Assembly: GCF_023023025.1 (NCBI RefSeq)
Contig: NZ_CP095481.1
Span: 6,089,001-6,153,000, forward strand
Source of the DNA: Amycolatopsis sp. WQ 127309
GTDB taxonomy: Bacteria > Actinomycetota > Actinomycetes > Mycobacteriales > Pseudonocardiaceae
Length of the DNA stretch: 64,000 nt
Reading direction: 5' to 3'
In this document: in pieces, positions 35,291 through 64,000 of the stretch
Layout: each line of letters starts with the position of its first letter
Numbering within the stretch: position 1 is the stretch's first letter
Made by a program: the position numbers and the translations under genes
Notes under the pieces: model-generated
Told to the model about the DNA's origin: nothing
Databases searched by the model: none
What the model saw: only the letters and a program-made list of their open reading frames with translations

Positions 35291-35472
35291 GTTGCCGGGA
35301 AGTTTCCGGCAGAATTCGTCGCCGGGTAACCGGGAAACGTCGCTGGTCAACCGGGGGCGGCTCTCGGCCCCGGCATTCGAATGTGGAGATCGGCGGCTCG
35401 CTGAGGGTACGGTGGCTGGCGAGGAGAACTTCGAGGCGGACGTCGGCCTAACTCGCTGTGGAGATGATGGGG

Positions 35473-38253: not shown

Positions 38254-38309
38254 GCAGGGGATCCAGGGGGGCCGGTTAGGGGAGACGGCGGCCCGTCTTG
38301 CGCGAGACT
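38254..38309 (+). promoter_or_regulatory. G-tract repeat operator and promoter of the carbamoyltransferase operon
   Basis: Three G-tracts: CAGGGG (38255), CCAGGGGGG (38263) and TTAGGGG (38276). First and third A are exactly 22 bp apart, with the middle tract slightly shifted. A -10-like GAGACT (38304-38309, in GAGACTGG) starts 26 bp after the third A. The same arrangement recurs at other ansamycin transcription units; the site is proposed as the LAL activator box. Confidence 0.6.
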
Positions 38310-38402
38310 GGCCGTGGGACTTGCGGCATGGCGCGTGCTTCGGGAGATGCCAGGCCCAGTGATCGTGGTTCTGTCCGTTGCCGAGGGTATGGGTGGTCGA
38401 AC

Positions 38403-40412
38403 GTGTTGGTGCTTGGCTTGAACGGGAACTTTTCGACCGGGGAATCCGATCTCGTGCCGCTGATGTCCGAGTTCTTCTTCCACGACGCTTCGGCGTCCCT
38501 CGTCCGTGACGGCGAACTGATCGCCGCGGTCGAGGAGGAACGGCTCAACCGCATCAAGAAGACGACCAAGTTCCCGGTCAACGCGATCCGCGCGTGCCTC
38601 GACGCGGCGGGTGTCACCCCCGGCGAGATCGACGCGGTGGGGTACTACTTCCGCGAGGAGCACATGGACAACGTGCTCAACCACCTCTACACCGAGCACC
38701 CGCGGGTGCCGGTCCGCTACTCCCGGGAGCTCGTCAAGCAGCGGCTCCGGGAGGAGTTCGGCTGGGACCTTCCCGACGAGAAGCTGATCTACGCCCCGCA
38801 CCACGACGCGCACGCGATGTCGACCTACATGCACTCGGGGATGCGGGAGGCGTTGGTGGTCGTCCTGGACGGCCGCGGGGAGGACAACTCCGGCACGGTC
38901 TACCGCGCGGTGGACGGCAGCTTGGAGAAGCTGGCCGACTACTCGGTGATGCACTCCCTCGGCGTGCTGTACCTGAACGCCACCCAGCTCCTGGGCTACG
39001 GCTTCGGCGACGAGTACAAAGTGATGGGCCTCGCGCCGTACGGCGACCCGGCGACCTACCGGGACCTCTTCGCTCGGCTGTACACGTTGCGGGACAAGGG
39101 CACCTACGACCTGCACCCCAACATGACGGTGCCCAACCTGGTCAGCCCGCTGTTCTTCGCGCACGGGTTCCGGCCCCGGCGCAAGGGCGAGCAGTTCACC
39201 CAGCAGCACAAGGACTTCGCCGCGGGGCTGCAGGAAGCGGTCGAGACGATCGCGATGCACGTGTTCCGGTACTGGGCGGAGACCACCGGCCTGCCGGGAC
39301 TGTGCTTCGGCGGCGGGGTGGCCCACAACTCGAGCCTCAACGGCGTGCTCCTCGGTTCCGGGCTGTTCCAGGAGGTCTTCGTGCACCCGGCGTCCCACGA
39401 CGCCGGCGCCGGCGAGGGCGCCGCGTTCATGGCGATGGCCGAGCTCGGCCACCGGCTCCCGCCCGGCGAGCGGCTGCGCAGCGCCGCCGTGGGCCCCGCA
39501 CTGGGTACCGAGGCGCAGGTCGCCGAGCGGCTCGCCGCGTGGAGCTCGGTGGTCGAGATCGAGCGGCGGGACGACATCGTGGACACCGCGGCGCGGCTGC
39601 TGGCGGACGGCTCGGTCCTGGGCTGGGCGCAGGGCCGGTCGGAGTTCGGCCCCCGCGCCCTCGGCCACCGCAGCATCATCGCGGACGCGCGGCCGGCCGC
39701 GAACCAGACCCGGATCAACGCGATGGTCAAGAAGCGCGAGAGCTTCCGGCCGTTCGCGCCGGTGGTCACCGCCGAGGACGCCAAGAGCTACTTCGACCTG
39801 CCCGGCACCGCGGCGGCCTACGAGTTCATGTCCTTCGTGGTGCCGGTGCTGGCGGAACGCCGGCCGGAGCTCGGCGCGGTCACGCACGTCGACGGCACCG
39901 CCCGCGTCCAGCTCGTCGACCCGCTGTCCAACGCGCGGTTCCACCGGCTGGTCGCCCGGTTCGGCGAGCTCACCGGAACTCCGGTGCTGCTCAACACGTC
40001 CTTCAACAACCACGCCGAGCCGATCGTGCAGAGCGTCGACGACGTCGTGACCTCGTTCCTGACCACCGAGCTCGATTACCTGGTCGTGGAAGACTTCCTC
40101 GTCCGGCGCAAGAACGGCGCGCGGGTCGACCTCGACCCCCTGGTGCCGGGCTTCCGGCCGGTGACGAGGCTGGCCGAGCGGTCCGGCGACGGTTCGCCCG
40201 CCGCCGTGATCGTCTCCCGGGAGATCTACCTGGACTACTCCGGCGGTCCGGTCGCGACGGTGTCCGAGCCGCTCTACGAGCTGCTCCGCAAGGTGGACGG
40301 CCGCACGACGGTGGGCGCACTGGTGGCGGCCGCGGGCGGAGTTCCCGATGGTGTGCGCGACGAACTGTACGACCTCTGGCAGCAGCGGCTGCTGAACCTG
40401 ACGCCCGCCTGA
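38403..40412 (+). CDS. Ansamycin O-carbamoyltransferase, GdmN/Asm21 type
   Basis: Carbamoyltransferase of the NodU/CmcH family, 669 residues, that uses carbamoyl phosphate and ATP to place a carbamate on a macrocycle hydroxyl. The N-terminal Kae1-like transferase part (about 1-350) has [19 protein letters not shown], metal-site HHDAHA and [10 protein letters not shown]; the YrdC-like C-terminal part (about 380-600) has [14 protein letters not shown] and [12 protein letters not shown], for the carbamoyl-adenylate step. Over its whole length it resembles GdmN/Asm21 of geldanamycin and ansamitocin clusters as I remember them, which ties the cluster to carbamoylated ansamycins. GTG start 38403, six nt after GGGTGG, gives the usual family N-terminus; the frame is open 105 bases further upstream without a better site. 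First gene of the plus-strand operon. Confidence 0.93.
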
Positions 40413-40459
40413 AGCCCCCTGCCGACGTGGCAGCCGTCGCGGATGTCAGTGGAGGCATC

Positions 40460-40783
40460 GTGCACCGGACACTCAACGAGACCGTGGCCGACCCGGCGCG
40501 GACACCGCCGGACGACGGCCGGCGCGACGCCGCGCTGGTGACGGCCGCGGACGGCGTCCAAGCGGACATCTTCCGGCTCCTCACCGCGCTCGGCGAGCAC
40601 CGCGCGAAGTCCGACGCGCTGGTCGAAGCGTGCGTCGCCTGCTTGGAGGCCGCGCAGTGCGTGGCCGGCCTGGTGGCCGGCGACTCGCCGGCGGAACACA
40701 CCACAATGGACCCCCGGGCGCAGGAAGCGGTGCACGCCATGCGGGCGGCCACCCTGGCGGTCCGGTTCGCGGTGACGGAGTAG
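40460..40783 (+). CDS. Small unknown helical protein
   Basis: A 107-residue protein I do not recognise. It has a charged, disordered-looking N-terminus (about 1-30), then predicted helices with QADIFRLLTALGEHRAKSDALV and a Cys cluster ACVACLEAAQC (C-x2-C-x5-C). No signal peptide or membrane segment. GTG start with GGAGG 4 nt upstream; GC-rich third positions support real coding. It lies 47 nt after the carbamoyltransferase and 21 nt before the kinase, so is part of the operon. The length, helices and cysteines could suit a small partner or scaffold protein; that is only a guess. Confidence 0.65.
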   Translation: MHRTLNETVADPARTPPDDGRRDAALVTAADGVQADIFRLLTALGEHRAKSDALVEACVACLEAAQCVAGLVAGDSPAEHTTMDPRAQEAVHAMRAATLAVRFAVTE

Positions 40784-40804
40784 GACGGGTGCGCCATCGG
40801 CTAC

Positions 40805-41728
40805 GTGGGGATCGACATCGGCGGCACGAAGGTCGCTTTCCGTACCGAGCGGGAGAAAACCGGTGAGGTGACCGAGTTCTCCGTCACCTGGCCGGATCCG
40901 GCGGCCGGGGCGGCGGCGGATCTGCGGCTGCTCGGCGCGCAGGTCGCGAAGCTGCCGCCGCGGATCACGGCCGTCGGCGTCTCGGTACCGGCCACTGTGG
41001 ACCGGACCGGGCGGGTGGTGGCCTGGCCCGGGCGGCCCAGCTGGACCGGCGTGGACTTCGGTGCGGCGCTGCGGTCGCTCTTCCCGGGCGTACCGGCGTG
41101 CTTCGCCGACGACGGGGACCTCGCCGCGATCGCCGAGGCCCGCGCCGCGCACTGCGCCGACCTGGTCTACTTCGGGGTCGGCACCGGCGTCGGCGGCGGG
41201 ATCGTGCTCGACGGGCGTCCGTGGCCCGGGCTCGCCCGCGCGTCCTGCGAGCTCGGGCACGTGGTGGTGGACCGGTCCGGTACGCGCTGCGACTGCGGCC
41301 GGCGGGGCTGCGTCCAGGCGGTCGCGTCCGGACCGGCGACGCTGCGCCGGGCGGCCCGGACCCGGGGTGCGGCGGTGACGGCCGCGCAGCTGCGGGACGG
41401 GATCGCGGCGGGCGCGCCGTGGGCGGTGTCGGCGGTGACCGAGAGCGCCGGGGCGCTGGCCGCCGCGGTGGTGAGCGTCGGGGAGCTGTGCGACCCGGCG
41501 CTGGTCCTGATCGGCGGCGGGTTCGCCGCGGGCGTCCCGGGCTTCGTCCCGCTCGTCGCCGAGGAGGTACGCCGGCTGGCGCGCCCGGGCCACGAGCCGG
41601 CACCGGTGCGGCCCGCGGTCCTCGGCGGACTGTCCTCTTTGCACGGTGCCGTGCTCGCGGCGCGGGACCTGACGCGTGCCGGTCAGTCCGCGGAGATCTC
41701 CAGCAGCGCGCGGGCCGCGAGCCGGTAA
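40805..41728 (+). CDS. rifN: ROK-family sugar kinase, kanosamine kinase (RifN-like)
   Basis: ROK kinase of 307 residues; in AHBA pathways this enzyme (RifN, AsmN-like) phosphorylates kanosamine at C6 to feed aminoDAHP formation. Visible: phosphate loop DIGGTKV (4-10), ROK signature GVGTGVGGGI, catalytic region ELGH and the zinc site CDCGRRGC, followed by VQ where most ROK proteins have xE. The assigned start is GTG 40805; its Shine-Dalgarno site is poor, and ATC 40796 in the same frame sits six nt behind GGACGGG and would add GYV-type residues as in relatives. Its end overlaps the end of the opposite dehydratase gene by 46 bp. Confidence 0.85.
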   Translation: MGIDIGGTKVAFRTEREKTGEVTEFSVTWPDPAAGAAADLRLLGAQVAKLPPRITAVGVSVPATVDRTGRVVAWPGRPSWTGVDFGAALRSLFPGVPACFADDGDLAAIAEARAAHCADLVYFGVGTGVGGGIVLDGRPWPGLARASCELGHVVVDRSGTRCDCGRRGCVQAVASGPATLRRAARTRGAAVTAAQLRDGIAAGAPWAVSAVTESAGALAAAVVSVGELCDPALVLIGGGFAAGVPGFVPLVAEEVRRLARPGHEPAPVRPAVLGGLSSLHGAVLAARDLTRAGQSAEISSSARAASR

Positions 41729-42117
41729 CCGAGCGCGCCGAGCCCGACGACGGCTCCGCTGGCCAGCGGAGCCAGCACCGACTCGTGCCGGAACCGCTCA
41801 CGGGCCCAGACGTTCGACAGGTGCACCTCGATCCACGGCCGCGGGTAGTTCGCGAGCGCGTCGCGCAGGCTCCAGCCGGCGATCATCAGCGCACCCGGGT
41901 TGAGGATCGCGCCGACGGTGCCGTAGCCGTTCTGGAGGACCCGGATCAGTTCGCTCTCGGCGTCGGACTGGAACGCGGTGACCCGCCAGCCGCGTTCTGC
42001 GACCTCGGCGGTGACGGACTTCTCGATGTCGTCGAGCGTCGCCAGTCCGTAGATGTCGGTTTCGCGACGGCCGAGTATGCCGAGATTGGGTCCGTTCAGC
42101 AGCAGCAATTCGTCCAT
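41683..42117 (-). CDS. rifJ: Type II (amino)dehydroquinate dehydratase (RifJ-like)
   Basis: Small type II dehydroquinase of 144 residues. In the aminoshikimate route it turns 5-amino-5-deoxy-3-dehydroquinate into 5-amino-5-deoxy-3-dehydroshikimate. Visible: LNGPNLGILGRRETDIYG near the start (lid Arg and catalytic Tyr region), QSDAESELI, NPGALM, and EVHLSNVWARERFRHESVL with the catalytic His. Start is the ATG at 42117, where the family begins (MDELLLLNGPN); the open frame further upstream is low-complexity. Encoded opposite to rifK, with the divergent 236-bp region between them; its end overlaps the kinase gene tail to tail. Confidence 0.92.
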   Translation of the reverse strand: MDELLLLNGPNLGILGRRETDIYGLATLDDIEKSVTAEVAERGWRVTAFQSDAESELIRVLQNGYGTVGAILNPGALMIAGWSLRDALANYPRPWIEVHLSNVWARERFRHESVLAPLASGAVVGLGALGYRLAARALLEISAD

Positions 42118-42223
42118 GGTGATCGCCCGTCCTCGTTTTCGCAGGCATCCGGTTCGAGCGCCCGGTTCCCGGACGATAGCAAGAATTGCGCTACCGGGCC
42201 GGGAAACGGCGTCGCCGTGCGAG

Positions 42224-42284
42224 GCTAGGGGGACTTTAGGGGGCGGCAAGGGGATTGGTCGCGTCCGAACCGAATGGGTAACGT
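42224..42284 (+). promoter_or_regulatory. Three-copy 11-bp G-tract operator and promoter before rifK
   Basis: CTAGGGGG (A at 42227), TTAGGGGG (A at 42238) and CAAGGGGA (A at 42249) are spaced exactly 11 and 11 bp: one helical turn each. A possible -10 TAACGT (42279-42284) starts 30 bp after the last A. This is the cleanest triplet together with the one before the PKS gene. Proposed binding site of the cluster LAL activator. Confidence 0.65.
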
Positions 42285-42353
42285 GACGATCGTTTGGTGA
42301 ACGACGTCGGTGATATCTGCATGCCTGTTTCGCAAAAGTAGGGGCGGAAGTCA

Positions 42354-43517
42354 ATGAGTGAAGTGCGCCAGAAGCTTGAATTCCCGGCCTGGCCCCAGTT
42401 CGGCGACGAGGAACGGATCGGCCTGCACCGCGCGCTCGAGCAGGGCCAGTGGTGGCGCGTCGGCGGCAGCGAGGTCGACACGTTCGAGCGGGAGTTCGCC
42501 GAGTACCACAACGCCGAACACGCGCTGGCGGTCACCAACGGCACGCACGCGCTGGAGCTCGCGCTCCAGGTGCTGGGGGTGACGCCCGGCAGCGAGGTCG
42601 TCGTCCCCGCGTTCACGTTCATCTCGTCTTCGCAGGCCGCCCAGCGCCTCGGGGCGGTGGCCGTGCCGGTCGACGTCGACCCCGGGACCTACAACATCGA
42701 CGTGGCCGCCGCGGCCGCGGCGATCACCTCGAAGACCAGCGCGATCATGCCGGTGCACATGGCGGGGCTGCTCGCCGACATGGACGCGCTGGCCAAGCTG
42801 TCGGCCGACTCCGGGGTGCCGCTGCTGCAGGACGCCGCGCACGCGCACGGCGCGCGGTGGCGCGGCCGGAAGGTCGGCGAGCTGGGCTCGGTGGCCGCCT
42901 TCAGCTTCCAGAACGGCAAGCTGATGACCGCGGGCGAGGGCGGCGCCGTGCTCTTCGGCGACGCCGAGCTGTACGAGACCGGGTTCGTGCGCCACAGCTG
43001 CGGCCGGCCCCGGACCGACCGGGGCTACTTCCACCGCACCTCCGGGTCGAACTTCCGGATGACCGAGTTCTCGGCCGCGGTGCTGCGGGCCCAGCTGACC
43101 CGGCTCGACGAGCAGATCGCCGTGCGGGAACAGCGGTGGCAGGTCCTTTCCGGGCTGCTCGCGGGGATCGACGGCGTCGTGCCGCAGGCGACCGACGACC
43201 GGTGTGACCGCAACCCGCACTACATGGCGATGTTCCGGCTGCCGGGTGTCACCGAGCGGCGGCGCGCCGAGATCGTCGACGCCCTCATCGAGCGCGGGCT
43301 GCCGGCCTTCGTCGGGTTCCGGGCCGTCTACCGCACCGACGCCTTCTGGGAGACCGGGGCCCCGGACGTCACGGCCGACGAGCTCGCCCGCCGGTGCCCG
43401 AACGCCGAGGCGCTGACCACGGACTGCGTGTGGCTGCACCACCGGCTGCTGCTGGGGACCGAGGCGCAGATGCACGACGTGGCCGCCGCCGTCGCCGACG
43501 TCGCGGGCCGCGGATGA
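42354..43517 (+). CDS. rifK: AHBA synthase (3-amino-5-hydroxybenzoate synthase)
   Basis: PLP enzyme of 387 residues in the DegT/DnrJ/EryC1 family, making 3-amino-5-hydroxybenzoic acid, the ansamycin starter, by dehydrating and aromatising aminodehydroshikimate. The PLP lysine is Lys189 in FSFQNGKLMTAGEGG, at almost the position known for RifK; other family landmarks are TNGTHALELAL, PAFTFISSSQ, QDAAHAHGA and GSNFRMTEFSAAVL. The start ATG is preceded by GGGGCGGAAG. Its stop overlaps the rifL start by 4 bp. Presence of rifK with rifL, rifM, rifN, rifJ and rifG is the accepted signature of an AHBA cluster. Confidence 0.96.
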   Translation: MSEVRQKLEFPAWPQFGDEERIGLHRALEQGQWWRVGGSEVDTFEREFAEYHNAEHALAVTNGTHALELALQVLGVTPGSEVVVPAFTFISSSQAAQRLGAVAVPVDVDPGTYNIDVAAAAAAITSKTSAIMPVHMAGLLADMDALAKLSADSGVPLLQDAAHAHGARWRGRKVGELGSVAAFSFQNGKLMTAGEGGAVLFGDAELYETGFVRHSCGRPRTDRGYFHRTSGSNFRMTEFSAAVLRAQLTRLDEQIAVREQRWQVLSGLLAGIDGVVPQATDDRCDRNPHYMAMFRLPGVTERRRAEIVDALIERGLPAFVGFRAVYRTDAFWETGAPDVTADELARRCPNAEALTTDCVWLHHRLLLGTEAQMHDVAAAVADVAGRG

Positions 43518-44623
43518 GCGGCCGCCGGGGGTCCGCGCCCCTGCGGGTCGCCGTGGTCGGGCTCGGCTGGGCGGGCCGGAACATCTGGCTGCAACGGTTG
43601 CGTGCCCACCGCGCCTACGAGGTGGTGGCGCTGGTCGAGCCGGATCCGGTGCTGCGGGCGAGCGTGGCCCGGGAGGCCGGGGGGACGGCGGTGTACGCGT
43701 CGACCGACCGGCTGGCCGCGGACTCGGTCGACCTCGCGATCGTCGCGGTGCCCAACCACCTGCACGCGCCGGTCGCCGGCCGGGTGCTGGCCGCGGGCAT
43801 CCCGGTGTTCCTGGAGAAGCCGCTGTGCCTGTCCTCGGCCGAGGTGGACCAGCTGGCCGCCGCGGAGGCCGCGGGCGGTGCGGTGCTGCTGGGCGGGAGC
43901 GCGGCCTGCTACCGCGCCGACGTGACCGCGCTCCGGGAGCTGACCGCCTCGCTCGGGGAGATCCGGCACGCCGAGCTGTTCTGGCGCCGGGCCCGCGGGG
44001 TGCCCGCCGGGGCCGGCTGGTTCACCAGCAGGCAGCTGGCGGGCGGCGGTGCCCTGGTCGACCTCGGCTGGCACCTGCTGGACGTTGCGCGGCTGCTGCT
44101 GGGCCGCCAGGTGTTCGAGCAGGTGGTCGGCGCCGTCTCCGCCGACTTCGTCAACGGCCGGTCCTTCCGGGCGGCGTGGCGCGAGGACGACCCGGCCGAC
44201 GGCCCCGGCGGCGACGTCGAGGACACCGCGCACGGGTTCATGGTCACCGCCGACGGGCTTTCGGTGGCGCTCCGGGCGAGCTGGGCCTCCCACGAGGCAC
44301 TGGACAGCACCGTCTTCCGGATCGAGGGCAGCGAGGGCGCCGCGGAGCTGCGGTGCACCTTCGGCTTCAGCCCGAACCGCGTCGAGGGCTCGTCGCTCAC
44401 CCACACGGTCGGCGGGGTGGCCGGCCCCGCCGAAGCGCCGGCCGAACCGATCGGCGCGGAGTACGACCGCCAGCTCGACGCGGTGCCGGCGCTGCTCACC
44501 GATCCGGCGGGGCGGGGCCGCGCGGTGGAGGACGCGCGCTGGGCGATCGATGTCATCGAACGGATCTACGCGTCGGCGGCGCTCGCGCAGGCCGGGCGAC
44601 CGTTGAGCAGCGTCAGCCGATAA
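43514..44623 (+). CDS. rifL: RifL-like Gfo/Idh/MocA oxidoreductase
   Basis: NAD-dependent dehydrogenase of 369 residues. RifL works with RifK to make UDP-3-keto-glucose and then UDP-kanosamine, the nitrogen source of AHBA. Visible: the nucleotide loop VVGLGWAGRN (about 14-23), EKPLCLS with the catalytic Lys, and GALVDLGWHLLD, all typical of Gfo/Idh/MocA proteins. The start overlaps the rifK stop (ATGA) and the gene ends 14 nt before rifM, an arrangement kept in AHBA clusters. Assignment as rifL rests on family plus conserved neighbourhood. Confidence 0.92.
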   Translation: MSGRRGSAPLRVAVVGLGWAGRNIWLQRLRAHRAYEVVALVEPDPVLRASVAREAGGTAVYASTDRLAADSVDLAIVAVPNHLHAPVAGRVLAAGIPVFLEKPLCLSSAEVDQLAAAEAAGGAVLLGGSAACYRADVTALRELTASLGEIRHAELFWRRARGVPAGAGWFTSRQLAGGGALVDLGWHLLDVARLLLGRQVFEQVVGAVSADFVNGRSFRAAWREDDPADGPGGDVEDTAHGFMVTADGLSVALRASWASHEALDSTVFRIEGSEGAAELRCTFGFSPNRVEGSSLTHTVGGVAGPAEAPAEPIGAEYDRQLDAVPALLTDPAGRGRAVEDARWAIDVIERIYASAALAQAGRPLSSVSR

Positions 44624-44637
44624 CCGGGAGTGGATGC

Positions 44638-45351
44638 ATGAGTACCCAGCAGGAACCTGAGCGCGGTGCGGCGCCGGTCGCGGCCGGACGGCGGGTGAGC
44701 GTGGTGGTGTTCGACCTCGACGGCGTGCTCGTGGACAGCTTCGGCGTCATGCGCCAGGCGTTCGACCTCGCCTACGCCGAGGTGGTCGGCGACGGCGAAG
44801 CGCCGTTCGCCGAGTACAACCGGCACCTCGGCCGGTACTTCCCCGACATCATGCGCATCATGGGGCTGCCACTGGAGATGGAGGCGCCGTTCGTCCGGGA
44901 GAGCTACCGCCTGGCCCACGAGGTCCGCGTCTTCGCCGGGGCGCGCGAGGTCGTGTCCGCGTTGCGGGACAGCGGGTTCGGGCTGGCGGTCGCCACCGGC
45001 AAGAGCGGGCCGCGGGCCCGTTCGCTGCTCGAGCGGCTGGACCTGCTCCGGCTGTTCGACCACGTCATCGGCTCGGACGAGGTGGCCCGGCCCAAGCCGG
45101 CCCCGGACATCGTGCTGCGCGCGATGTCCCTGCTGGGCGCGGTCCCGGACGAGGTGATCATGGTGGGCGACGCCGTGACCGACATCGAGAGCGCGCGCGA
45201 CGCCGGGGTCGCCGCCGTCGCCGCGTTGTGGGGCGAAACGGATGAAGCCGCGCTGATGCGGGCGAAGCCGGACGTGACCCTGCGGAAGCCGGAAGACCTG
45301 CTGGAGTGGCTGGGCCTCGACCAGCCCGAGCTGGCGAGCTCCGGCAGGTGA
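44638..45351 (+). CDS. rifM: RifM-like HAD phosphatase
   Basis: HAD-superfamily phosphatase of 237 residues, needed in AHBA formation, probably to remove a phosphate on the way to kanosamine. Visible: motif I FDLDGVLVDS with the nucleophile Asp, motif II in VATGKSG, motif III Lys in ARPKPAPD, and motif IV VGDAVTDIESA. The first 20 residues are extra and Gln/Ala-rich. ATG 44638 lies behind GGGAGTGG, 14 nt after rifL, completing the K-L-M block. The longer open frame upstream overlaps rifL and is not used. Confidence 0.93.
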   Translation: MSTQQEPERGAAPVAAGRRVSVVVFDLDGVLVDSFGVMRQAFDLAYAEVVGDGEAPFAEYNRHLGRYFPDIMRIMGLPLEMEAPFVRESYRLAHEVRVFAGAREVVSALRDSGFGLAVATGKSGPRARSLLERLDLLRLFDHVIGSDEVARPKPAPDIVLRAMSLLGAVPDEVIMVGDAVTDIESARDAGVAAVAALWGETDEAALMRAKPDVTLRKPEDLLEWLGLDQPELASSGR

Positions 45352-45413
45352 CGGCCCGGCCACGGCACCGACTGCTCCCGTGAAATCAATGGACACCGCA
45401 CCAAGGGGAACTA

Positions 45414-46391: not shown

Positions 46392-46444
46392 CCGGGATCG
46401 AGCCGCTGCCGCCGCACCAGGGGGCGGCAGCGGCTCAGTCCCGG
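46392..46444. terminator. Bidirectional terminator hairpin between the methyltransferase and rifG genes
   Basis: A perfect 14-bp stem, GAGCCGCTGCCGCC (46400-46413) with its complement at 46423-46436 and a 9-nt loop, is flanked by a second 6-bp stem CCGGGA/TCCCGG (46392-46397 and 46439-46444). It starts right after the methyltransferase stop and runs over the rifG stop, so it can end both convergent transcripts. Confidence 0.75.
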
Positions 46445-47457
46445 GGCATCGAAGCCAGCGCGCTCGCGACGACGTGCTCGGGCACGTCGCGGACCAGGGC
46501 GGGGCCCGCCGGTCCGTCCAGCACGAAACCCAGGCCGGTGGTCGCCTTCTTGTCCAGCCGCATCAGGGCGATCAGCTCGCGGTCGTCGACCCCGGCGGGC
46601 AGCGTGGCCGGCAGCCGGTAGCTCGTCACCACGTCGTGGTGCTCGGCGACGCGGGCCGGGCCGATCCGGCCGAGCTCGCCGGCGAGCCGGCCCGCGAACA
46701 CCGTGCCGATGGCGACGCCCTCCCCGTGCCGCAGCGCGAAGCCGGTGGCCCGTTCGAGGGCGTGGCCCAGGGTGTGGCCGTAGTTGAGCAGGTGCCGGAC
46801 GCCGGCGTCGCGCTCGTCGGCCGAGACGATCCAGGCCTTCAGCGAGACACTGGCGGCGATCTGGTCGAGCAGCGGCCGTCCGTTGAGGCCGGGTGCGCCG
46901 ATGAAGTGGCAGCGGGCGAGCTCGCCGTACCCGTTGAGCCATTCCCGCTCCGGCAGCGTGTCCAGGTAGTCGAGGTCGCAGAGCACCGCGCTGGGCTGCC
47001 AGTACGTGCCGACCAGGTTCTTGCCCTCCGGCAGGTTCACCGCGGTCTTCCCGCCCACGCTCGCGTCGACCTGGGCGAGCAGCGACGTCGGCAGGTGGAT
47101 CACCGGGATGCCCCGGTGGTACAGCGCGGCAGCCAGGCCCACGGTGTCGGTCGTCGTGCCGCCGCCGCAGGACACGACGACGTCCGACCGGGTCAAGCCG
47201 GAGTCCACGAACCGGCGGCAGAGCTCCCCGACGGTCGCCAGCGTCTTGGCCGCCTCCCCGTCCTGGGCCGGGACGACCGTGTACGGCACACCGGGATCGG
47301 GCACCTCGGCCTCGTGCCGCGCCGTGACGACGACCGCCTTGCGCGCGCCGAGACGACCGACGATCCCGGGAAGTGCTTGCCGCACCCCGGAACCGATGTG
47401 CACCGGATAGGACCGCTCGGCCAGTTCGACGGTGACGCGTCTGCTCTCGCTGGGCAC
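46435..47457 (-). CDS. rifG: Aminodehydroquinate synthase (RifG-like)
   Basis: Dehydroquinate-synthase family protein of 340 residues, converting aminoDAHP to 5-amino-5-deoxy-3-dehydroquinate in the AHBA route. Visible: GGGTTTDTVGLAAALYHRG for NAD, LPTSLLAQVDASVGGKTAVN, metal ligands in YGELARC, NYGHTLGHALE and RHGEGVAIG. A GTG start at 47457 with an AAAGG upstream fits the family N-terminus (PSESRRVTVELAERSYPV). It stands alone on the minus strand, divergent from the A-KR loading protein across 162 bp and convergent with the methyltransferase. Clustered AHBA genes without rifH here imply that the aminoDAHP synthase lies outside the window. Confidence 0.93.
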   Translation of the reverse strand: MPSESRRVTVELAERSYPVHIGSGVRQALPGIVGRLGARKAVVVTARHEAEVPDPGVPYTVVPAQDGEAAKTLATVGELCRRFVDSGLTRSDVVVSCGGGTTTDTVGLAAALYHRGIPVIHLPTSLLAQVDASVGGKTAVNLPEGKNLVGTYWQPSAVLCDLDYLDTLPEREWLNGYGELARCHFIGAPGLNGRPLLDQIAASVSLKAWIVSADERDAGVRHLLNYGHTLGHALERATGFALRHGEGVAIGTVFAGRLAGELGRIGPARVAEHHDVVTSYRLPATLPAGVDDRELIALMRLDKKATTGLGFVLDGPAGPALVRDVPEHVVASALASMPRD

Positions 47458-47529
47458 GGGTACCGGCCTTTCGGTCTGGGATCGGCTACGGCGGAAGGGT
47501 AGTACGCGGGTGCCCGGCCGGACCCGGAT

Positions 47530-47586
47530 TGAGGGGGCCTGCGGGGAGCGGTCAGGGGGGAGCACCCCGGCGGCAGCGGAGAGACT
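47530..47586 (+). promoter_or_regulatory. G-tract repeat operator and promoter before the A-KR protein
   Basis: TTGAGGGGG (A at 47532), TGCGGGG (47541) and GTCAGGGGGG (A at 47554); first and third A are 22 bp apart. A -10-like GAGACT (47581-47586, in GAGACTGG) starts 27 bp after the third A, as before the PKS and carbamoyltransferase genes. Transcription would start about 27 bp before the A-KR start codon. Confidence 0.6.
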
Positions 47587-47619
47587 GGCCTTGCCTGCGC
47601 GAGCGAGAGGTGTGGTGGC

Positions 47620-50565
47620 ATGCTGCGTACCGACCTGATTCGCCCGCTGCTCGAACTGTTGCGGGAGAACGCCTTCCGGCACGCCGACCGGATCGCCTTC
47701 GCGGACGGGCGGCGGTCGGTCACCTACGCCCAGCTCGAACTGCGGACGCGGCGGGTGGCCGGGCACCTGGCCGACCTGCGCCTGCAACCGGGTGACCGCG
47801 CGATGATCTGCCTGGGGAACCGGGTGGAGACCGTGGAGAGCTACTACGCGGTGCTCCGGGCGAGCGCGCTGGCCGTGCCCGTCGACCCGCGGTCGGCGGA
47901 CGCGGAACTGGCCTACCTGCTGGACAACTGCGGCGCCCGCCTGGTGATCACCGACCACGCCCACGTCGAGCGGTTCCTCCGGCTTTCGGCCGGCTCGGAC
48001 CTGCGGATCGTGCTGGTGGGCGACGAGCCGCCGGTGCCCGGCTGCGTTTCCTGGGAGGCCTTGCTGGCCCGGAAACCCCGCGCCGCGGCGCGGGACGATC
48101 TGGGCTTGGACGAGCCGGCGTGGGTGTTGTACACGTCGGGGACGACGGGCCGCCCCAAGGGCGTGGTGTCGACCCAGCGGAGCTGCCTGTGGTCGGTGGC
48201 GGCGTGTTACGTCCCGGTGGCCGGGCTGGGCCCGGACGATCGGGTGCTGTGGCCGTTGCCGTTGTTCCATTCGTTGTCGCACATCGTGTGCGTGCTCGGC
48301 GTGGTGGCGGTGGGCGCGTCGGCTCGGTTGCTGCCGGGTTTCGCGGCGGACGACGTACTGGGCGCGGTGGCGGAGTTCCGGCCGACCGTGCTGGCCGGGG
48401 TGCCGACCGCTTACCACCACCTGGTTTCGGTGGGCGGTGGTGATTTGTCGGGGGTGCGCGTGGGTCTGGTGGGTGGCGCGGTGCTGCCGGCGGGGTTGCG
48501 GCGGTCGTTCGAGGACATCTTCGGTGTCCCGCTGGTGGACGCGTACGGGTCGACCGAGGCGTGCGGCGCGATCGCGGTGAACTGGGTTTCGGGTGGCCGG
48601 GTGGCGGGGTCGTGCGGGCTGCCGGTGCTGGGTCTGGCGGTGCGGCTGGTGGGCGTGGGTTCGGGATCGGACGTGGGTGTGGGGTGCGAGGGCGAGGTGT
48701 GGGTCCGGGGTCCGAACGTGATGCTGGGGTACTACAACCAGCCGGCGGCGACCGCCGAGGTGCTGGTGGACGGCTGGTTGCGGACGGGGGATCTGGCCCG
48801 TCGTGACGAGTCGGGGTTCCTGACGATCACGGGCCGGATCAAGGAGCTGATCATCCGGGCGGGGGAGAACGTCCATCCGGCTGAGGTGGAGGACGTCGTC
48901 CGGGGCGTAGCGGGGGTGGCGGACGTGGCCGTGGTGGGCCGGCCGCACGAGGTGCTGGGCGAGGTGCCGGTGGTCTTCGTGGTGCCGGGCCCCGAGGGTT
49001 TCGATCCCGCCGACGTCCTGGCCGCGTGCCACGAGCGCTTGTCGCCGTTCAAGGTGCCCGAGGCCGTCTACCAGATCACCCGCTTGCCGCGCACGGCGTC
49101 CGGGAAGATCAAGCGCCACGCGCTGCTCGACCTGCCGGCCCGGTTGCGGGCGATCGGCGACGACGAGTACGAGTCGCTCCTGCGCATGGACTGGGTTCCC
49201 CGCCCGCTGCTGCTCGATCCGCCCGCGCTGACGGGCTCCTGGGCCGTGGCCGGCCCGGGCGGCGACGCGCTGGCGGCCGGCCTGCGGCTGGCCGCGTCCC
49301 CGGACCGGGCCGGCCCGGACATCCGCGTCGGCACCTCGCCGGGCGAGCTCCGCGCCGCGATCGTGGGGCGGGCGCCCGACCTGCTGGTGCTGCTGCCGGC
49401 AGCCGGTGGTGCCGCCGAGGACGTCGGCGACGCGGTCGAAGCCGGCGTGCGGGCCTTGACCGCCGAAGTGGCCGCCTGGCTCGCCGACGAACGGCAGAGC
49501 GCCTCGACGGTCGTGGTGCTCACCCGCGGCGCGGTCGTCACCAGCGACCAGGAAGACGTGCGGGAGCTCCGGCACGCGCCGATCTGGGGCGCGGTGCGGT
49601 CACTGCAGGCCGAGCACCCGTCCCGGGTCCGCCTCGTGGACGTCGACGCCGGGTCGTGCCCGTGGACGGCCGCGCTGATCAGGGCGGTGCTCGCGGGCGA
49701 GACCCAGTCGGCCGTCCGCGGCGGTGTCGTGCTGGTGCCCCGGCTGGCCCGCGTCTCGGCCCCGGCCGAGCCCGGGCGGGGGCCCGCCGTCGATCCGGCG
49801 GGCACCGTCCTGGTCGCCGGCGCGGACGGGCCGCGCGGCGCCGCGATCGCCCGGCACCTGGCGACCGCCCACGGCGTCCGGCACCTGCTCCTGCTCAGCG
49901 CGGACGGCTGGCCGGACGCGGTCGCGGCCGAGCTGACCGCGCGGTTCGCGGCCGTGGGCACCGAAATCACGCTGGGGACCGGGACCGCCGCCGACCGGCC
50001 GGCGCTCGCGACCCTGCTCGACGGCGGGAAGCGGGCCGTCACCGGCGTGGTGCACGCGGAGGAGACGAGCACCCGGTACCCGGTGGGCGCCGCGATCCGG
50101 GGCCTCGTCAACCTGCACGAGCTGACCCGGCGGGACGAGCTGGGCCTGTTCGTCCTCGTGACGTCCGCCTGCGGTCCGCTCGGCGGTGCGGGCCGGGCGG
50201 AGCAGGCCGCGGTGGACGCCTTCGGCGAGGCGCTCGTCCTGCGCCGGCGGCGCCGCGGCCTGCCCGGGCTGGCGCTGGCGTGGGGGCCGCTGGCGGAGGA
50301 GGGCCGGTCCCGGTTCCCCGGCGCCGGCCCGATGTCCACTTCGGACGGACTCGCCATGGTCGACGCGGCGCTCGCGGCCGGCCAGGGATCCCTGTGCGTG
50401 CTGCGGGTCGACCCCGCGAACGTGCGCGCGCGGCCGGTCCCGGACCACGCCTCGGTGGTGCTGCACGACCTGATCGACCTGGCCCCGGCGAACCCGACCG
50501 CGGGTGATCGCCGCGTGACACCCCGGCAGGAAGAGGAGAGTGATGGTGCTTACGTCGCCCGCTGA
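47620..50565 (+). CDS. Stand-alone AHBA loading protein: A domain plus inactive KR, no ACP
   Basis: A 981-residue protein with the same layout and high similarity to the first 950 residues of the PKS at 54174, but it stops before any carrier domain. Residues 1-500 are an acyl-activating (CoA-ligase type) A domain with [17 protein letters not shown], the YYNQPAAT stretch and the A10 lysine in TASGKIKRHA, so it should make acyl-AMP, presumably of AHBA. Residues about 520-950 are KR-like but dead: the nucleotide loop reads VAGADGPRG, and the catalytic Tyr segment GNYAAAN is replaced by AEQAAVD. The C-terminal tail (RQEEESDGAYVAR) is short and charged. ATG 47620 lies behind GAGAGG; the monooxygenase gene starts inside its end. 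It could load the PKS ACP in trans, prime another carrier, or be a spare copy. Confidence 0.93.
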   Translation: MLRTDLIRPLLELLRENAFRHADRIAFADGRRSVTYAQLELRTRRVAGHLADLRLQPGDRAMICLGNRVETVESYYAVLRASALAVPVDPRSADAELAYLLDNCGARLVITDHAHVERFLRLSAGSDLRIVLVGDEPPVPGCVSWEALLARKPRAAARDDLGLDEPAWVLYTSGTTGRPKGVVSTQRSCLWSVAACYVPVAGLGPDDRVLWPLPLFHSLSHIVCVLGVVAVGASARLLPGFAADDVLGAVAEFRPTVLAGVPTAYHHLVSVGGGDLSGVRVGLVGGAVLPAGLRRSFEDIFGVPLVDAYGSTEACGAIAVNWVSGGRVAGSCGLPVLGLAVRLVGVGSGSDVGVGCEGEVWVRGPNVMLGYYNQPAATAEVLVDGWLRTGDLARRDESGFLTITGRIKELIIRAGENVHPAEVEDVVRGVAGVADVAVVGRPHEVLGEVPVVFVVPGPEGFDPADVLAACHERLSPFKVPEAVYQITRLPRTASGKIKRHALLDLPARLRAIGDDEYESLLRMDWVPRPLLLDPPALTGSWAVAGPGGDALAAGLRLAASPDRAGPDIRVGTSPGELRAAIVGRAPDLLVLLPAAGGAAEDVGDAVEAGVRALTAEVAAWLADERQSASTVVVLTRGAVVTSDQEDVRELRHAPIWGAVRSLQAEHPSRVRLVDVDAGSCPWTAALIRAVLAGETQSAVRGGVVLVPRLARVSAPAEPGRGPAVDPAGTVLVAGADGPRGAAIARHLATAHGVRHLLLLSADGWPDAVAAELTARFAAVGTEITLGTGTAADRPALATLLDGGKRAVTGVVHAEETSTRYPVGAAIRGLVNLHELTRRDELGLFVLVTSACGPLGGAGRAEQAAVDAFGEALVLRRRRRGLPGLALAWGPLAEEGRSRFPGAGPMSTSDGLAMVDAALAAGQGSLCVLRVDPANVRARPVPDHASVVLHDLIDLAPANPTAGDRRVTPRQEEESDGAYVAR

Positions 50566-52192
50566 GGGAGAGTCCGCCGCGGACGTGGTCGTCGTGGGCT
50601 ACGGCCCGGTGGGCCAGCTGCTGTCGGTCCTGCTCGCGCAACGGGGGTGGCGGGTCGTCGTGCTGGAGCGGTGGCCGGAGCCCTTCTCGCTGCCGCGCGC
50701 GGTGGGGTTCGACAGCGAGGCCGCGCGCCTGCTCGCCGCGGCCGGGATCGGCGACGCGTTCGCCGAGTTCGGCGAGCCGTCACGGGAGTACGCCTGGCGC
50801 AACGCCCGCGGGCAGACGCTGATCGAGTTCGACGTCGCCGAACGGGGCCACTGCGCATGGCCGGATTCGACGTCGTTCTACCAGCCCGCACTGGAAGCCG
50901 CGTTGATCGCCCGCGGTGCGAGCATGCCCAACCTGCGGGTGCTACGCGGCCACACCCTGGTGGACACGGCGGAGCGCGACGACGGGGTCGACCTGACCGC
51001 CGAGACATCCGGCGGCGCCCGCCGGAGCTTCCGCGCGAGCTGGGTGATCGGGTGCGACGGGGCCAACAGCTTCGTCCGGGACCGCATCGGGACCACCAGC
51101 ACGGATCTCGGCTTCGCCCACGACTGGCTGATCTGCGACGTGACCCTGCGCGAGCCCCGCGAGTTCCGGCCGAACAACCTGCAGATCTGCGATCCGGCCC
51201 GGCCGCGGACCGCGGTGTCGGCGGGCCCCGGGCACCGCCGCTGGGAGTTCATGCGCCTGCCGGGGGAGCGGGTGAGCGGCTTCGGCGACGCCGGGAACGC
51301 CTGGCGCCTGCTCCGCCTCGTCGACGTCACCCCCGAGAACGCGCGGCTGGACCGCCACGCCGTGTACACCTTCCGGGCGAGCTGGGCGGATCACTGGCAG
51401 TCCGGCCGGCTGCTCATCGCGGGGGACGCGGCCCACCTCATGCCGCCCTTCGCCGGGCAGGGCATGTGTTCGGGCTTCCGGGACGCGGCCAACCTCGCGT
51501 GGAAGCTCGACTTCGTGCTGGCCGGCGTGGCGGACGCGGCGCTGCTCGACACCTACACCGCCGAGCGCCGGGCCCACGTGCGGCACGCGGTGACCATGTC
51601 GGTCGAGCTCGGCAAGGTGGTGTGCGTGGTGAACCCGGCCGCGGCCGCCGACCGGGACGGCGCCATGCTCACCGCGCGCAGCCGGAACATCGGCCCGCCG
51701 GCGCGGGAGCGGACCGCGGTCAAGGCGCTGGTGACCGGTTTCCTGCACCACGGTGCCGACGGCCTCCCGGCCGCGCACGCGGGTGACTCCACCCCGCAGG
51801 CGCGGGTGGCCGCCGGTGGCCGCACGGGTCTGTTCGACGAGATCGTCGGCCTGGGCTTCGTGCTGATCAGCACCCTGGACGTGGCCTCGGTGCCCGACGC
51901 GGGCTCGCTGGCCGCGATCGGCGCCCGGCCGGTCCGGGTGCGCCCGGCCGGCACCGCGGCGGGCGACCTCGCCGAGCACGACGTCGTCGACGTCGACGAC
52001 GTCTACCTGCCGTACCTGGCCGGTCTGGGTGCGGTGGCGGCGCTGGTGCGTCCGGACTTCTACCTCTTCGGCGTCGCGGAGGACGAGGACGGCCTGCGAC
52101 GGCTGGTGCGGGACGCCGCCGGCCGGCTCACCGCGTCGCGGGCACCGACCGGCCGGATCCCGGCGGAACCGGTGCCGCCAGGCGCCCGCTGA
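50543..52192 (+). CDS. FAD-dependent aromatic monooxygenase, Rif-Orf19/GdmM-like
   Basis: Flavoprotein hydroxylase of 549 residues in the 3-(3-hydroxyphenyl)propionate hydroxylase family. Visible: N-terminal FAD loop VVVVGYGPVGQLL, the second FAD motif VIGCDGANS and the ribityl-binding GDAAHLMPPFAGQG. Relatives in ansamycin clusters (Rif-Orf19, GdmM, MbcM) oxidise the aromatic ring of the growing or released polyketide, giving quinone or naphthalene forms; with a geldanamycin-like start module here, ring oxidation to a quinone is the likely role. The start ATG lies 23 bp inside the end of the A-KR gene with GAGGAG upstream; GTG 50546 is also possible. Its end overlaps the opposite gene by 65 bp. 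Confidence 0.9.
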   Translation: MVLTSPAEGESAADVVVVGYGPVGQLLSVLLAQRGWRVVVLERWPEPFSLPRAVGFDSEAARLLAAAGIGDAFAEFGEPSREYAWRNARGQTLIEFDVAERGHCAWPDSTSFYQPALEAALIARGASMPNLRVLRGHTLVDTAERDDGVDLTAETSGGARRSFRASWVIGCDGANSFVRDRIGTTSTDLGFAHDWLICDVTLREPREFRPNNLQICDPARPRTAVSAGPGHRRWEFMRLPGERVSGFGDAGNAWRLLRLVDVTPENARLDRHAVYTFRASWADHWQSGRLLIAGDAAHLMPPFAGQGMCSGFRDAANLAWKLDFVLAGVADAALLDTYTAERRAHVRHAVTMSVELGKVVCVVNPAAAADRDGAMLTARSRNIGPPARERTAVKALVTGFLHHGADGLPAAHAGDSTPQARVAAGGRTGLFDEIVGLGFVLISTLDVASVPDAGSLAAIGARPVRVRPAGTAAGDLAEHDVVDVDDVYLPYLAGLGAVAALVRPDFYLFGVAEDEDGLRRLVRDAAGRLTASRAPTGRIPAEPVPPGAR

Positions 52193-52973
52193 CCGTGCCG
52201 TCCCGCAACGCCGTGCGCAGCAGGGAAGCCGCCAGGGCCAGGGTGTCGCGCGGCAGGCCGAGCCGGGGCGCGCTGCTCTTGGCGTGCTCGAACATCAGGT
52301 AGTGCACCGGCGTGGCCCCGGTGGACGCCTCGTCGCGCGCGACCCGCTCGACGAGGTGCAGCTGGCGGTGCCACGCGTCGCGGAACCGCCCGTCGGCGCG
52401 CAGGTCCCCGGCCCGTGCCAGCGCCGAGTCCGCCGCCTGGACGGCCAGCCCGGCCAGCGCGACCCGCCGGCCCGGGCGCATCCCGCGCGTCCAGTGTTCC
52501 CAGCAGGAGAACAGGAACGACGCGCGGGCGGCGTCGCTCACCGCTCCGAGCAGCGACCACAGGTGCAGCACCGCCGTCGGCAGGCCGGAGCCTTCGGTGG
52601 GTTCGCCCGCCAGGCACAGGTCGAGGGCCAGTTCGCTGGACACCGTCGCCAGTTCCTCGGCGCGGCGCCGCCCCAGCGGGTCCGCGAACTGCCCGGTCGG
52701 CGGGTCACCCGCCCGCTGGGCCAGGCGCCAGCCGCGGCGCGCCGCGGCGTGCTGGAACCGCCGGACGATTTCGTGGCGATGCCAGGCACCGGTGTGCACC
52801 CACAGCGCGAAACCGTCGTCCAGCGGGTCGAAGAACCAGTGCGCGGCCCCGGGTTCCGCGTGCGGCTCCCGGATCGTCTCGAGCTCCGCGCTCCACGTGG
52901 CCCACGCCGTGGGGTTCGGTCCGGAAAGGTGGTTCTCGTCGCGGAGGTGGAGGGAAAACCATTCGTCGGTCAT
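52128..52973 (-). CDS. Unknown protein resembling the lantibiotic-dehydratase C-terminal (SpaB_C / thiopeptide cyclase) fold
   Basis: A 281-residue soluble protein, not clearly recognised. Three blocks recall stand-alone SpaB_C-like proteins: WFFDPLDDGFALWVH early on (family: WFFIRY plus a pattern of alternating residues), ELATVSSELALDLCLA in the middle, and YLMFEHAKSSAPRLGLPRDT near the end (family: hMHxNRLLGLxR). Length fits that group, whose members include lyases of class I lanthipeptide dehydratases and the [4+2] cyclases of thiopeptides. No RiPP precursor or partner dehydratase is nearby. The typical catalytic residues cannot be confirmed by eye. It is encoded opposite to the monooxygenase and overlaps its end. 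In a polyketide cluster it could be a cyclase or a chaperone-like protein; this is a weak inference. Confidence 0.55.
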   Translation of the reverse strand: MTDEWFSLHLRDENHLSGPNPTAWATWSAELETIREPHAEPGAAHWFFDPLDDGFALWVHTGAWHRHEIVRRFQHAAARRGWRLAQRAGDPPTGQFADPLGRRRAEELATVSSELALDLCLAGEPTEGSGLPTAVLHLWSLLGAVSDAARASFLFSCWEHWTRGMRPGRRVALAGLAVQAADSALARAGDLRADGRFRDAWHRQLHLVERVARDEASTGATPVHYLMFEHAKSSAPRLGLPRDTLALAASLLRTALRDGTVSGRLAAPVPPGSGRSVPATR

Positions 52974-53327
52974 GAACTCGACTTTCGATTCGCCGGCTAC
53001 CGGTGCTCACTCGGCCCGTTCGGCCGCAGGTCGTTCCGCGGAAAGCGGTGACGACCGATTCCTACCACCGGAGCCCGGCCGCGGCTCCGGCCGCGCGGAA
53101 GTCTGGGATGCCTTAGGGGGGGCCACCGGGGTGTGCGCGTGCGCGGGCGAATCGGAACGACCCTACCGCGCCGGGGCGAGCCGGCCGCCGGGGAAAGCCG
53201 ACCCCCCTTGGGGTCCCGGGAATCGTGCGGCGGCAAGGGGGGTGGTCAGGGGGGAGGCGTGGTGCTCCGCGCCGCTAGCGTCGCGCAATGAAGAGATCCG
53301 GTCCGAACACGAGAGGTCCGACGAACC
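52974..53327. other. 354-bp divergent intergenic region
   Basis: Lies between the SpaB_C-like gene (minus) and the YceI gene (plus). It contains no convincing gene. Visible elements are TTAGGGGGGG (53113-53122) and CAAGGGGGG/TCAGGGGGG (53234-53254) on the plus strand, and one inverted copy on the minus strand (CCAAGGGGGGT, complement of 53200-53210) facing the SpaB_C-like gene. So both directions may answer to the same regulator. Confidence 0.6.
53234..53281 (+). promoter_or_regulatory. Two-copy G-tract operator and promoter before the YceI gene
   Basis: GCAAGGGGGG (A at 53236) and GTCAGGGGGG (A at 53248), 12 bp apart, then a -10-like TAGCGT (53276-53281) 28 bp after the second A. The arrangement is a two-copy form of the repeats seen at the other ansamycin promoters. 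Confidence 0.55.
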
Positions 53328-53897
53328 ATGAGTAATGCCGCAGTGCCGTTCTCGCCCATCGATCCCGAGGTGAGTGGTTCGTACCAGCTGGATCCCCTGC
53401 ACTCCCGCATCGGCTTCGTCGCCCGGCACGCGATGGTGACGAAGGTGCGCGGCAACTTCAACGAGTTCGAGGGCACCCTGATCCTGAACGCGGAGAAGCC
53501 GGCCGAGTCGAGCGCGGCCCTGTCGGTCCAGGCCGCCAGCGTCGACACCCGCAGCAAGCTCCGCGACGACCACCTGCGCACGGGCGACCTCCTCGACGCC
53601 GACACCTTCCCGCAGCTCACGTTCACCAGCACCGCCGTCGAGCAGACCGGTGACACGCGGTTCCGGATGACCGGTGACCTGACCATCCGCGGTGTCACCC
53701 GGCCGGTCGACATCGACTGGGAGTACGGCGGCACCGTCAAGGACCTGACGGGCAGTCTCCGCAGCGGTTTCGAGGGCAAGGCGGAGATCGCCCGCTCGGA
53801 CTTCGGCATGGAGTTCAACATGCCGCTGGAGGCCGGTGGGTTCCTGGTGTCCGACAAGATCGTCCTCGAGCTGGACGTGTCGGCGGTCAAGGACTGA
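53328..53897 (+). CDS. YceI-family lipid/isoprenoid-binding protein
   Basis: A 189-residue YceI-like lipocalin-type barrel. Visible: YQLDPLHSRIGFVARHAMVT at the start, VRGNFNEFEGTL, the central D..LRTGDLLDADTFPQLTF and a late SDFGM. Members bind polyisoprenoids, quinones or related long hydrophobic molecules. No signal peptide is seen, so this one should be cytoplasmic. It has its own promoter-like element with G-tract repeats, suggesting it belongs to the ansamycin regulon, where it might bind a hydrophobic intermediate or protect quinone chemistry. Role in the pathway is inference. Confidence 0.9.
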   Translation: MSNAAVPFSPIDPEVSGSYQLDPLHSRIGFVARHAMVTKVRGNFNEFEGTLILNAEKPAESSAALSVQAASVDTRSKLRDDHLRTGDLLDADTFPQLTFTSTAVEQTGDTRFRMTGDLTIRGVTRPVDIDWEYGGTVKDLTGSLRSGFEGKAEIARSDFGMEFNMPLEAGGFLVSDKIVLELDVSAVKD

Positions 53898-53990
53898 CCG
53901 TTTCGTTACCGGCAGCCGCGTTTCCGCCGCACAGGCAGGAACGTGGCTGTCTTCGTGTGCGCGTCCGGGAGCCGGGCGGCGCGCGGCGAA

Positions 53991-54047
53991 CCTGGGGATG
54001 TGCAGGGGGCGGCTAGGGGGCCCCTCACCCGGATCAGCGGCGAGACT
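53991..54047 (+). promoter_or_regulatory. Three-copy 11-bp G-tract operator and promoter before the PKS gene
   Basis: CTGGGGA (T at 53993), CAGGGGG (A at 54004) and TAGGGGG (A at 54015) are exactly 11 and 11 bp apart. GAGACT (54042-54047, in GAGACTGG) starts 27 bp after the last A, so the third copy abuts the -35 position, as expected for an activator touching RNA polymerase. The untranslated leader before ATG 54174 would be about 120 bases and holds no gene. Confidence 0.65.

Positions 54048-54173: not shown

Positions 54174-64000
<9,827 letters not shown>

Follow-up and report, generated by a model that had tools for sequence, protein, structure and literature searches.

The locus considered here raises the question of which regulator reads the G-rich direct repeats that stand in front of the genes of an ansamycin cluster in Amycolatopsis sp. 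WQ 127309. The window, i.e., the whole stretch of DNA analyzed (64,000 nucleotides), corresponds to C1:6089001-6153000 of the 11.13-Mb genome of this strain (G000). An initial annotation of the window had described TAGGGGG-like repeats upstream of five plus-strand transcription units, and had proposed them as the operator of an ansamycin regulon, with an adjacent LuxR-type gene as the natural candidate for the binder. Based on the analysis presented here, the repeats are very probably the operator of the cluster's own LAL (MalT-like) activator, encoded on the plus strand at 35458-38220, and the comparison of clusters, neighbourhoods, promoter geometry and recognition helix favours this protein as the predicted binder over the SARP encoded beside it. 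The sites, their geometry, their conservation, their rarity in the genome and their association with LAL genes can be read directly from the DNA.

Direct reading and a script placed all five repeat groups 5' of the five plus-strand units, at the places and with the spacings originally given. Operator 1 (38256-38282), in front of the carbamoyltransferase gene (38403-40412, start codon chosen by inspection), holds three G-tract copies in 11-bp phase: AGGGG has its A at 38256, 38265 and 38278, and the strict 11-bp register reads [A/G/T]GGGG at 38256, 38267 and 38278, the seemingly shifted middle copy at 38265 being a longer G run with an in-phase GGGGG at 38267 inside it. Operator 2 (42227-42253), 5' of rifK, the gene for 3-amino-5-hydroxybenzoate (AHBA) synthase (42354-43517, DegT/DnrJ/EryC1 aminotransferase family), has three AGGGG copies spaced 11+11 bp (A at 42227, 42238 and 42249). 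Operator 3 (47532-47558) precedes the gene of the adenylation-ketoreductase (A-KR) loading protein (47620-50565), with AGGGG at 47532 and 47554, 22 bp apart, and a middle copy at 47543 which is in phase and reads GGGGA. Operator 4 (53236-53252), 5' of the YceI-like gene (53328-53897), is an AGGGG pair 12 bp apart (A at 53236 and 53248), and operator 5 (53993-54019) consists of TGGGG at 53993 followed by AGGGG at 54004 and 54015, again spaced 11+11 bp, in front of a polyketide synthase (PKS)/loading gene that starts with an adenylation domain and runs off the window (54174-64000; first 1000 residues scanned). All these features lie on the plus strand, as do the proposed -10 elements, which are GAGACT for operators 1 (38304-38309), 3 (47581-47586) and 5 (54042-54047), TAACGT for operator 2 (42279-42284) and TAGCGT for operator 4 (53276-53281). 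The -10 starts 26, 30, 27, 28 and 27 bp after the last A for operators 1 to 5, respectively, which reproduces exactly the earlier reading of 26-28 bp in four cases and 30 bp for rifK. The reported absence of repeats before the nonribosomal peptide synthetase (NRPS) operons also holds: in a script scan of the window the NRPS genes had no AGGGG pair 5' of them and the minus strand was free of such pairs, and positions 1-35000 gave 0 matches for each of four repeat patterns. The sole further AGGGG pair in the window, at spacings of 8-14 or 20-24 bp, is one of 24 bp at 55162, within the PKS reading frame.

Dinucleotide shuffles of the window indicate how far such arrays depart from chance. The strict 11-bp triplet was seen 3 times against a mean of 0.012, a number reached in 0 of 500 shuffles, while AGGGG pairs at 10-12 bp (4 seen, mean 0.52) attained at least 4 in 2 of 500, and the repeat followed by AGACTNG (3 seen, mean 0.076) reached 3 in 1 of 500. 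With loose spacing (9-13 or 22 bp), 5 sites were seen against a mean of 1.23 and a maximum of 6 in 200 shuffles, and the window alone is weaker evidence in that respect. The patterns used for the host genome were derived from the sites themselves, so that their own presence was expected and the scarcity elsewhere is the informative part. In the 11.13 Mb, AGGGGN{21,23}AGACTNG matches 4 times, always in the ansamycin cluster, where these matches represent four of the six operators, and its mirror has 0; this is far from the equal frequency across the genome that had been named as damaging to the original proposal. The fourth match, at 6170394, belongs to a site of the same type (G000:C1:6170370) approximately 17 kb past the window end, in a 174-bp gap with a long reading frame on one side and a PKS gene on the other. 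Moreover, the three-copy strict pattern has 5 genome matches, 3 of which are in the cluster, and its mirror has 1.

Two adjoining genes encode the regulators that have to be weighed as binders. The LAL protein has 920 aa, with an N-terminal AAA_16 ATPase domain (residues 25-169, E 9e-14) that carries the Walker A sequence GPLACGKTT, and a C-terminal LuxR-type helix-turn-helix (HTH) matched by GerE (residues 860-911, E 3e-12); both the length of around 900 aa with an N-terminal ATPase and the terminal HTH are those of a LAL. Its neighbour, on which the initial annotation was silent, is an AfsR-type SARP (31585-34602, plus strand) with HTH_31, Trans_reg_C, BTAD, NB-ARC and TPR matches, in which an additional N-terminal HTH_31 lies ahead of the AfsR-like SARP-NB-ARC-TPR body. 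The position of this gene and its BTAD, Trans_reg_C and NB-ARC domains make it a rival for the binding of the repeats. Direct repeats with a step of 11 or 22 bp are the signature of SARP sites (PMC10936776). Such steps occur here, with 11+11 bp in operators 2 (42227) and 5 (53993) and 22 bp in operator 3 (47532), so that spacing by itself favoured the SARP. SARP geometry is also flexible, as PimR, a SARP-LAL, binds three heptamers off the -35 and, in addition, a 10-bp repeat (PMC10972967). However, the 3' repeat of a typical SARP site lies 8 bp from the -10 (PMC10936776), whereas the gap measured here is 21-25 bp.

The orthologous cluster speaks on the same issue. The best relative found for the LAL, 80% identical, is in Amycolatopsis vancoresmycina NRRL B-24208 (G058), and a contig scan for close LAL relatives returned only A. 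vancoresmycina plus two HTH-limited matches. Synteny between the two genomes starts at 35407, with the LAL gene, and excludes the SARP and NRPS side. Repeats are kept in A. vancoresmycina 5' of the carbamoyltransferase, AHBA synthase, loading protein and PKS genes and of a further PKS gene; the PKS operator has its middle A changed to G, and the -10 elements corresponding to those of operators 1 and 2 read AAGACT and TAATGT. Approximately 40 bp 5' of the PKS operator there is a 12-bp pair, with gene-sized space absent between the two, to be compared with the YceI pair of the window. No SARP is among the matches listed for the 99.9-kb A. vancoresmycina contig (150 of 166 candidates scored), and tblastn found none in 80 kb of it. 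The operators are thus kept in a cluster where the SARP lies outside the syntenic block, which argues against that protein as their binder.

A comparison of regulator neighbourhoods points in the same direction. The LAL set comprised 21 loci (830 kb), the own cluster and its A. vancoresmycina orthologue being left out, and 10 SARP loci from two genomes (400 kb) served as the control beside the mirrored motif. Around the LAL genes we found 29 AGGGG pairs at 10/11 bp, at 14 of the 21 loci, and 0 mirrored GGGGA pairs; the ten SARP neighbourhoods contained 0 of either. By eye, a few of the 29 pairs (in G073_2243, G004_4591 and G021) resemble ordinary G-rich or repetitive DNA and, as some loci are also near-identical, the number of independent true sites must be lower than 29. 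Typical geometry, synteny and association taken together make it very unlikely that the SARP binds the repeats; it probably regulates the NRPS cluster. The initial proposal of an operator of the ansamycin genes stands in so far as the repeats are present at the units of the cluster, and has to be widened in two respects: sites also occur near other LALs of the subfamily, and the regulon extends to at least one further gene, the PKS gene beyond the window.

AHBA-synthase loci in other genomes were compared as well. A survey of 298 genomes of the order yielded 20 further places that encode an AHBA synthase of at least 70% identity, and the neighbourhoods of 18 of them were read (G198:C16 and the second place of G203 being outside the 18); some of the stretches were short, namely whole contigs of 9 kb (G017) and 16 kb (G256), 44 kb up to a contig end (G198), 20 kb (G343), 40 kb (G203) and 60 kb (G233). 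At 14 of the 18 loci a repeat lies within approximately 250 bp upstream of AHBA synthase, in 13 with a 10- or 11-bp step and in G343 with one 12-bp pair; G073, G006, G017 and G256 have no repeat 5' of this gene. A triplet was also noticed just 5' of the second AHBA place of G203. For six of the 14 (G271, G240, G226, G291, G139b and G203) a LAL gene lies within the fetched stretch. Six more, all from genus g15 (G085, G106, G146, G198, G233 and G296), have no LAL in the fetched stretch, and 8 of 8 genomes of this genus that were searched, including G380 and G415, carry two LAL genes in tandem (in G146 one of the two is split), followed 2-4 kb downstream by an array of repeats. LAL pair and AHBA gene are on separate contigs in G198 and G233. 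In G085 the LAL pair and AHBA synthase are separated by 32 of the 47 ketosynthase matches, all on a single strand; as this ketosynthase run fills the gap, the whole is apparently a single cluster of approximately 200 kb, with an operator near both ends. This apparent giant AHBA-linked type I PKS cluster (G085:C3:4017036-4214032) belongs to a 6.9-Mb genome.

These data also bear on the possibility that the repeats are bound by a different regulator, one that these genera conserve and encode at some other place, and that the link with LALs reflects only shared residence in polyketide clusters. LALs often mark polyketide clusters, so that some association would be expected anyway, and G139a has an operator without a LAL in 80 kb. 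Still, the AHBA neighbourhoods of G073 and G006 (80-kb stretches) have neither LAL nor operator, although the G073 genome does encode LALs over 1.6 Mb distant, and a helix common to the LALs fits a common site; we therefore regard such a different regulator as improbable.

The recognition helix STVEQHLT is present in 30 of the 36 LuxR-HTH reading frames of at least 500 aa at the compared loci, the others being one LAL with STIEQHLT, one with SAIEQRLT and four other proteins with different helices. Geometry was followed at 72 sites chosen by script (those with at least three linked copies or with 10/11 bp between the first two; for the two ansamycin clusters every linked site was taken). Counted from the last A, TAnnnT starts at +28 (n=10), +29 (n=16) or +30 (n=6), and elsewhere in offsets 8-43 only at +26 (n=1) and +18 (n=3), i.e., 32 of 36 occurrences fall at +28 to +30. 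Altogether, 33 sites have TAnnnT at +26 to +30 and 9 have RAGACT at +26 to +28; in the two ansamycin clusters most units have RAGACT, at 26-27, instead of TAnnnT. At sites with a recognizable -10, a gap of 21-25 bp separates this element from the end of the last AGGGG, which abuts the presumed -35.

The geometry is also relevant to the idea that the G-tracts act as a DNA or RNA structure (G-quadruplex) rather than as a protein operator. The sites do contain 2-4 runs of at least four Gs within approximately 30 bp. A quadruplex should nevertheless be indifferent to the A and to the phase, yet AGGGG exceeds GGGGA by 29 to 0 near LALs, and clusters of at least three copies number 23 against 1 for the mirror in 20 neighbourhoods (the 18 plus the two ansamycin clusters, 1.30 Mb); the narrow distance to the -10 also speaks against it, and we consider a purely structural role extremely improbable. 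A long-spacer -35 read by an alternative sigma factor was likewise set aside, as the gap of 21-25 bp seems too long and the tandem array would be unneeded.

Several observations weigh against the LAL as the binder. Seven of the 21 LAL loci have no AGGGG pair at 10/11 bp despite the common helix, and the LALs without detected sites also carry STVEQHLT, so that possession of the helix is not enough to predict that a detectable site will be close by. When the pattern was relaxed and combined with nAnnnT, it matched at four of these seven loci and nowhere in the SARP set; two of the four matches, at G000:5913909 and G073:1801849, are TAGGGG pairs with a 12-bp step. A variant requiring [TG]AnnnT has no match anywhere and thus rescues none of the seven. 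Among the 72 sites, 30 have neither TAnnnT (+26 to +30) nor RAGACT (+26 to +28). The operator of G139a, in a genome that has a LAL nearer its other AHBA gene, is without a LAL in the 80-kb stretch, and that of G343 is without one in the 20 kb covered. Clusters of at least two copies, spaced anywhere from 9 to 26 bp, are no more frequent than their mirror in the same 20 neighbourhoods (67 against 80), and AGGGGN6AGGGG, with 9 genome-wide matches in the host (4 in the cluster), is rarer than its mirror (18); as loose clusters and genome-wide pairs do not beat the mirror, only phased arrays in promoters discriminate. In addition, not all loci count as independent, several of them being near-identical (G007/G052, G046/G038 and G139a/G203). 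Finally, the region upstream of the LAL gene has no tandem repeat in either Amycolatopsis genome, and self-activation is consequently unsupported.

Taking both sides into account, the G-rich repeat is probably a docking site of the LAL activator family, as judged from sequence comparison. We infer from the arrays that LAL protomers would align, in head-to-tail order, along two or three (C/T)AGGGG copies, 10-12 bp or about one helical turn apart, and that an ATP-dependent LAL oligomer formed in this way would place its last copy at about -41 to -36 and contact the polymerase at the -35. Starts of transcription would follow the nAnnnT -10 elements, where the LAL may aid RNA polymerase and compensate for a poor -35. 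In this manner the six transcription units of the ansamycin cluster, including the PKS gene beyond the window, would be activated together, and the adjoining NRPS cluster would not. Other LALs with STVEQHLT may use the same kind of operator. A general code, in which tandem (C/T)AGGGG copies at 10-12 bp intervals, the last of them near -41, go together with the STVEQHLT helix in ansamycin and many other clusters of more than one actinobacterial family, appears reasonably likely. If this code were true, regulons could be predicted for silent clusters that have a LAL of this kind, and likewise the cross-talk between LALs within one genome. The host itself encodes a second LAL (G000:C1:5906928-5913955), with an STVEQHLT helix, a 12-bp TAGGGG pair and TAGCGT 28 bp after the last A, and cross-talk between its two LALs is possible on the similarity of helix and site.

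A few further features of the window deserve mention. Three of the five operators sit in divergent gaps, where the leftward neighbours are the genes of a type II dehydroquinase and a dehydroquinate synthase and a reading frame at 52128-53006 with no Pfam match; as these leftward genes lack a minus-strand repeat of their own, control shared with the rightward genes is possible. At 53113-53122 there is a lone TTAGGGGGGG, whose A. vancoresmycina counterpart is TTAGGGGGG, adjoining a common AGTCTGGG; it has neither a tandem partner nor a fitting -10. The products of 47620-50565 and 54174-57173 have similar N-terminal adenylation domains followed by ketoreductase matches, which may reflect a duplication of the loading function.

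Many antibiotic clusters are under the control of LAL activators that turn them on, and in the literature consulted the sites of these activators are either not identified or only proposed. With a site recognizable in the DNA sequence itself, promoter maps and regulon borders could be drawn, here between the ansamycin cluster and the adjoining NRPS cluster; it would also show where silent ansamycin and giant polyketide clusters might be targeted to wake them, and could help to find silent antibiotic clusters. In a 2019 review on geldanamycin, the sequences recognised by its regulators were said to remain to be elucidated (PMC6784220), and for FkbN just a putative inverted repeat was proposed (PMC6022917). 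The titles and abstract beginnings found, which lie mostly outside subscription journals and do not prove priority, contain no description of a LAL operator of the AGGGG type, and the one search aimed at the string TAGGGG gave a single paper, which has it in a primer. Among regulators of related pathways, RifZ is reported to bind CTACC-N8-GGATG.

As to systems already described, the present one resembles that of RifZ in rifamycin biosynthesis, a LuxR-family pathway activator of an AHBA/ansamycin cluster which activates rifK (PMC7062684). It shares 11-bp-period direct repeats in antibiotic promoters with the sites of the SARPs AfsR, ActII-ORF4 and PimR, but differs from them in the position relative to the -10, in the lack of a SARP in the orthologous cluster stretch compared and in the lack of such repeats at the ten SARP loci. 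A MalT-type regulator of Actinoplanes sp. SE50/110 has a motif that ends 34.4 nt before the start and overlaps the -35, in agreement with the location proposed here, although that motif is described as an inverted repeat, TCATCC-5nt-GGATGA, and not as tandem AGGGG. The likeness extends to MalT itself in E. coli and Klebsiella, where a LAL ATPase with a C-terminal LuxR HTH recognises repeated G-rich boxes, GGGGA(T/G)GAGG, that overlap the -35 (PMC7567727). The NCBIfam MalT model matches the HTH of the LAL (E 9e-9, far under the full-length cut-off), and relative to the proposed -10s the tandem G-rich copies abut or overlap the -35 as MalT boxes do. The sequences differ, as the MalT core is GGA(T/G)GA, whereas here (C/T)AGGGG without a GATGA part is repeated every 10-12 bp, and by inspection the five operators contain neither GGATGA nor GGAGGA. 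The PAS-LuxR regulator PimM, also with a LuxR-type HTH, recognises CTVGGGAWWTCCCBAG at the -35 (PMC9774167), with a half-site, CTAGGGA, close to CTAGGGG; that site is a palindrome bound by a small PAS protein, whereas the five operators, in which no such palindrome was seen by inspection, are direct repeats with a LAL nearby. A PAS-LuxR-like half-site set in tandem instead of in a palindrome would be what one expects for an activator that works as an oligomer and not as a dimer.

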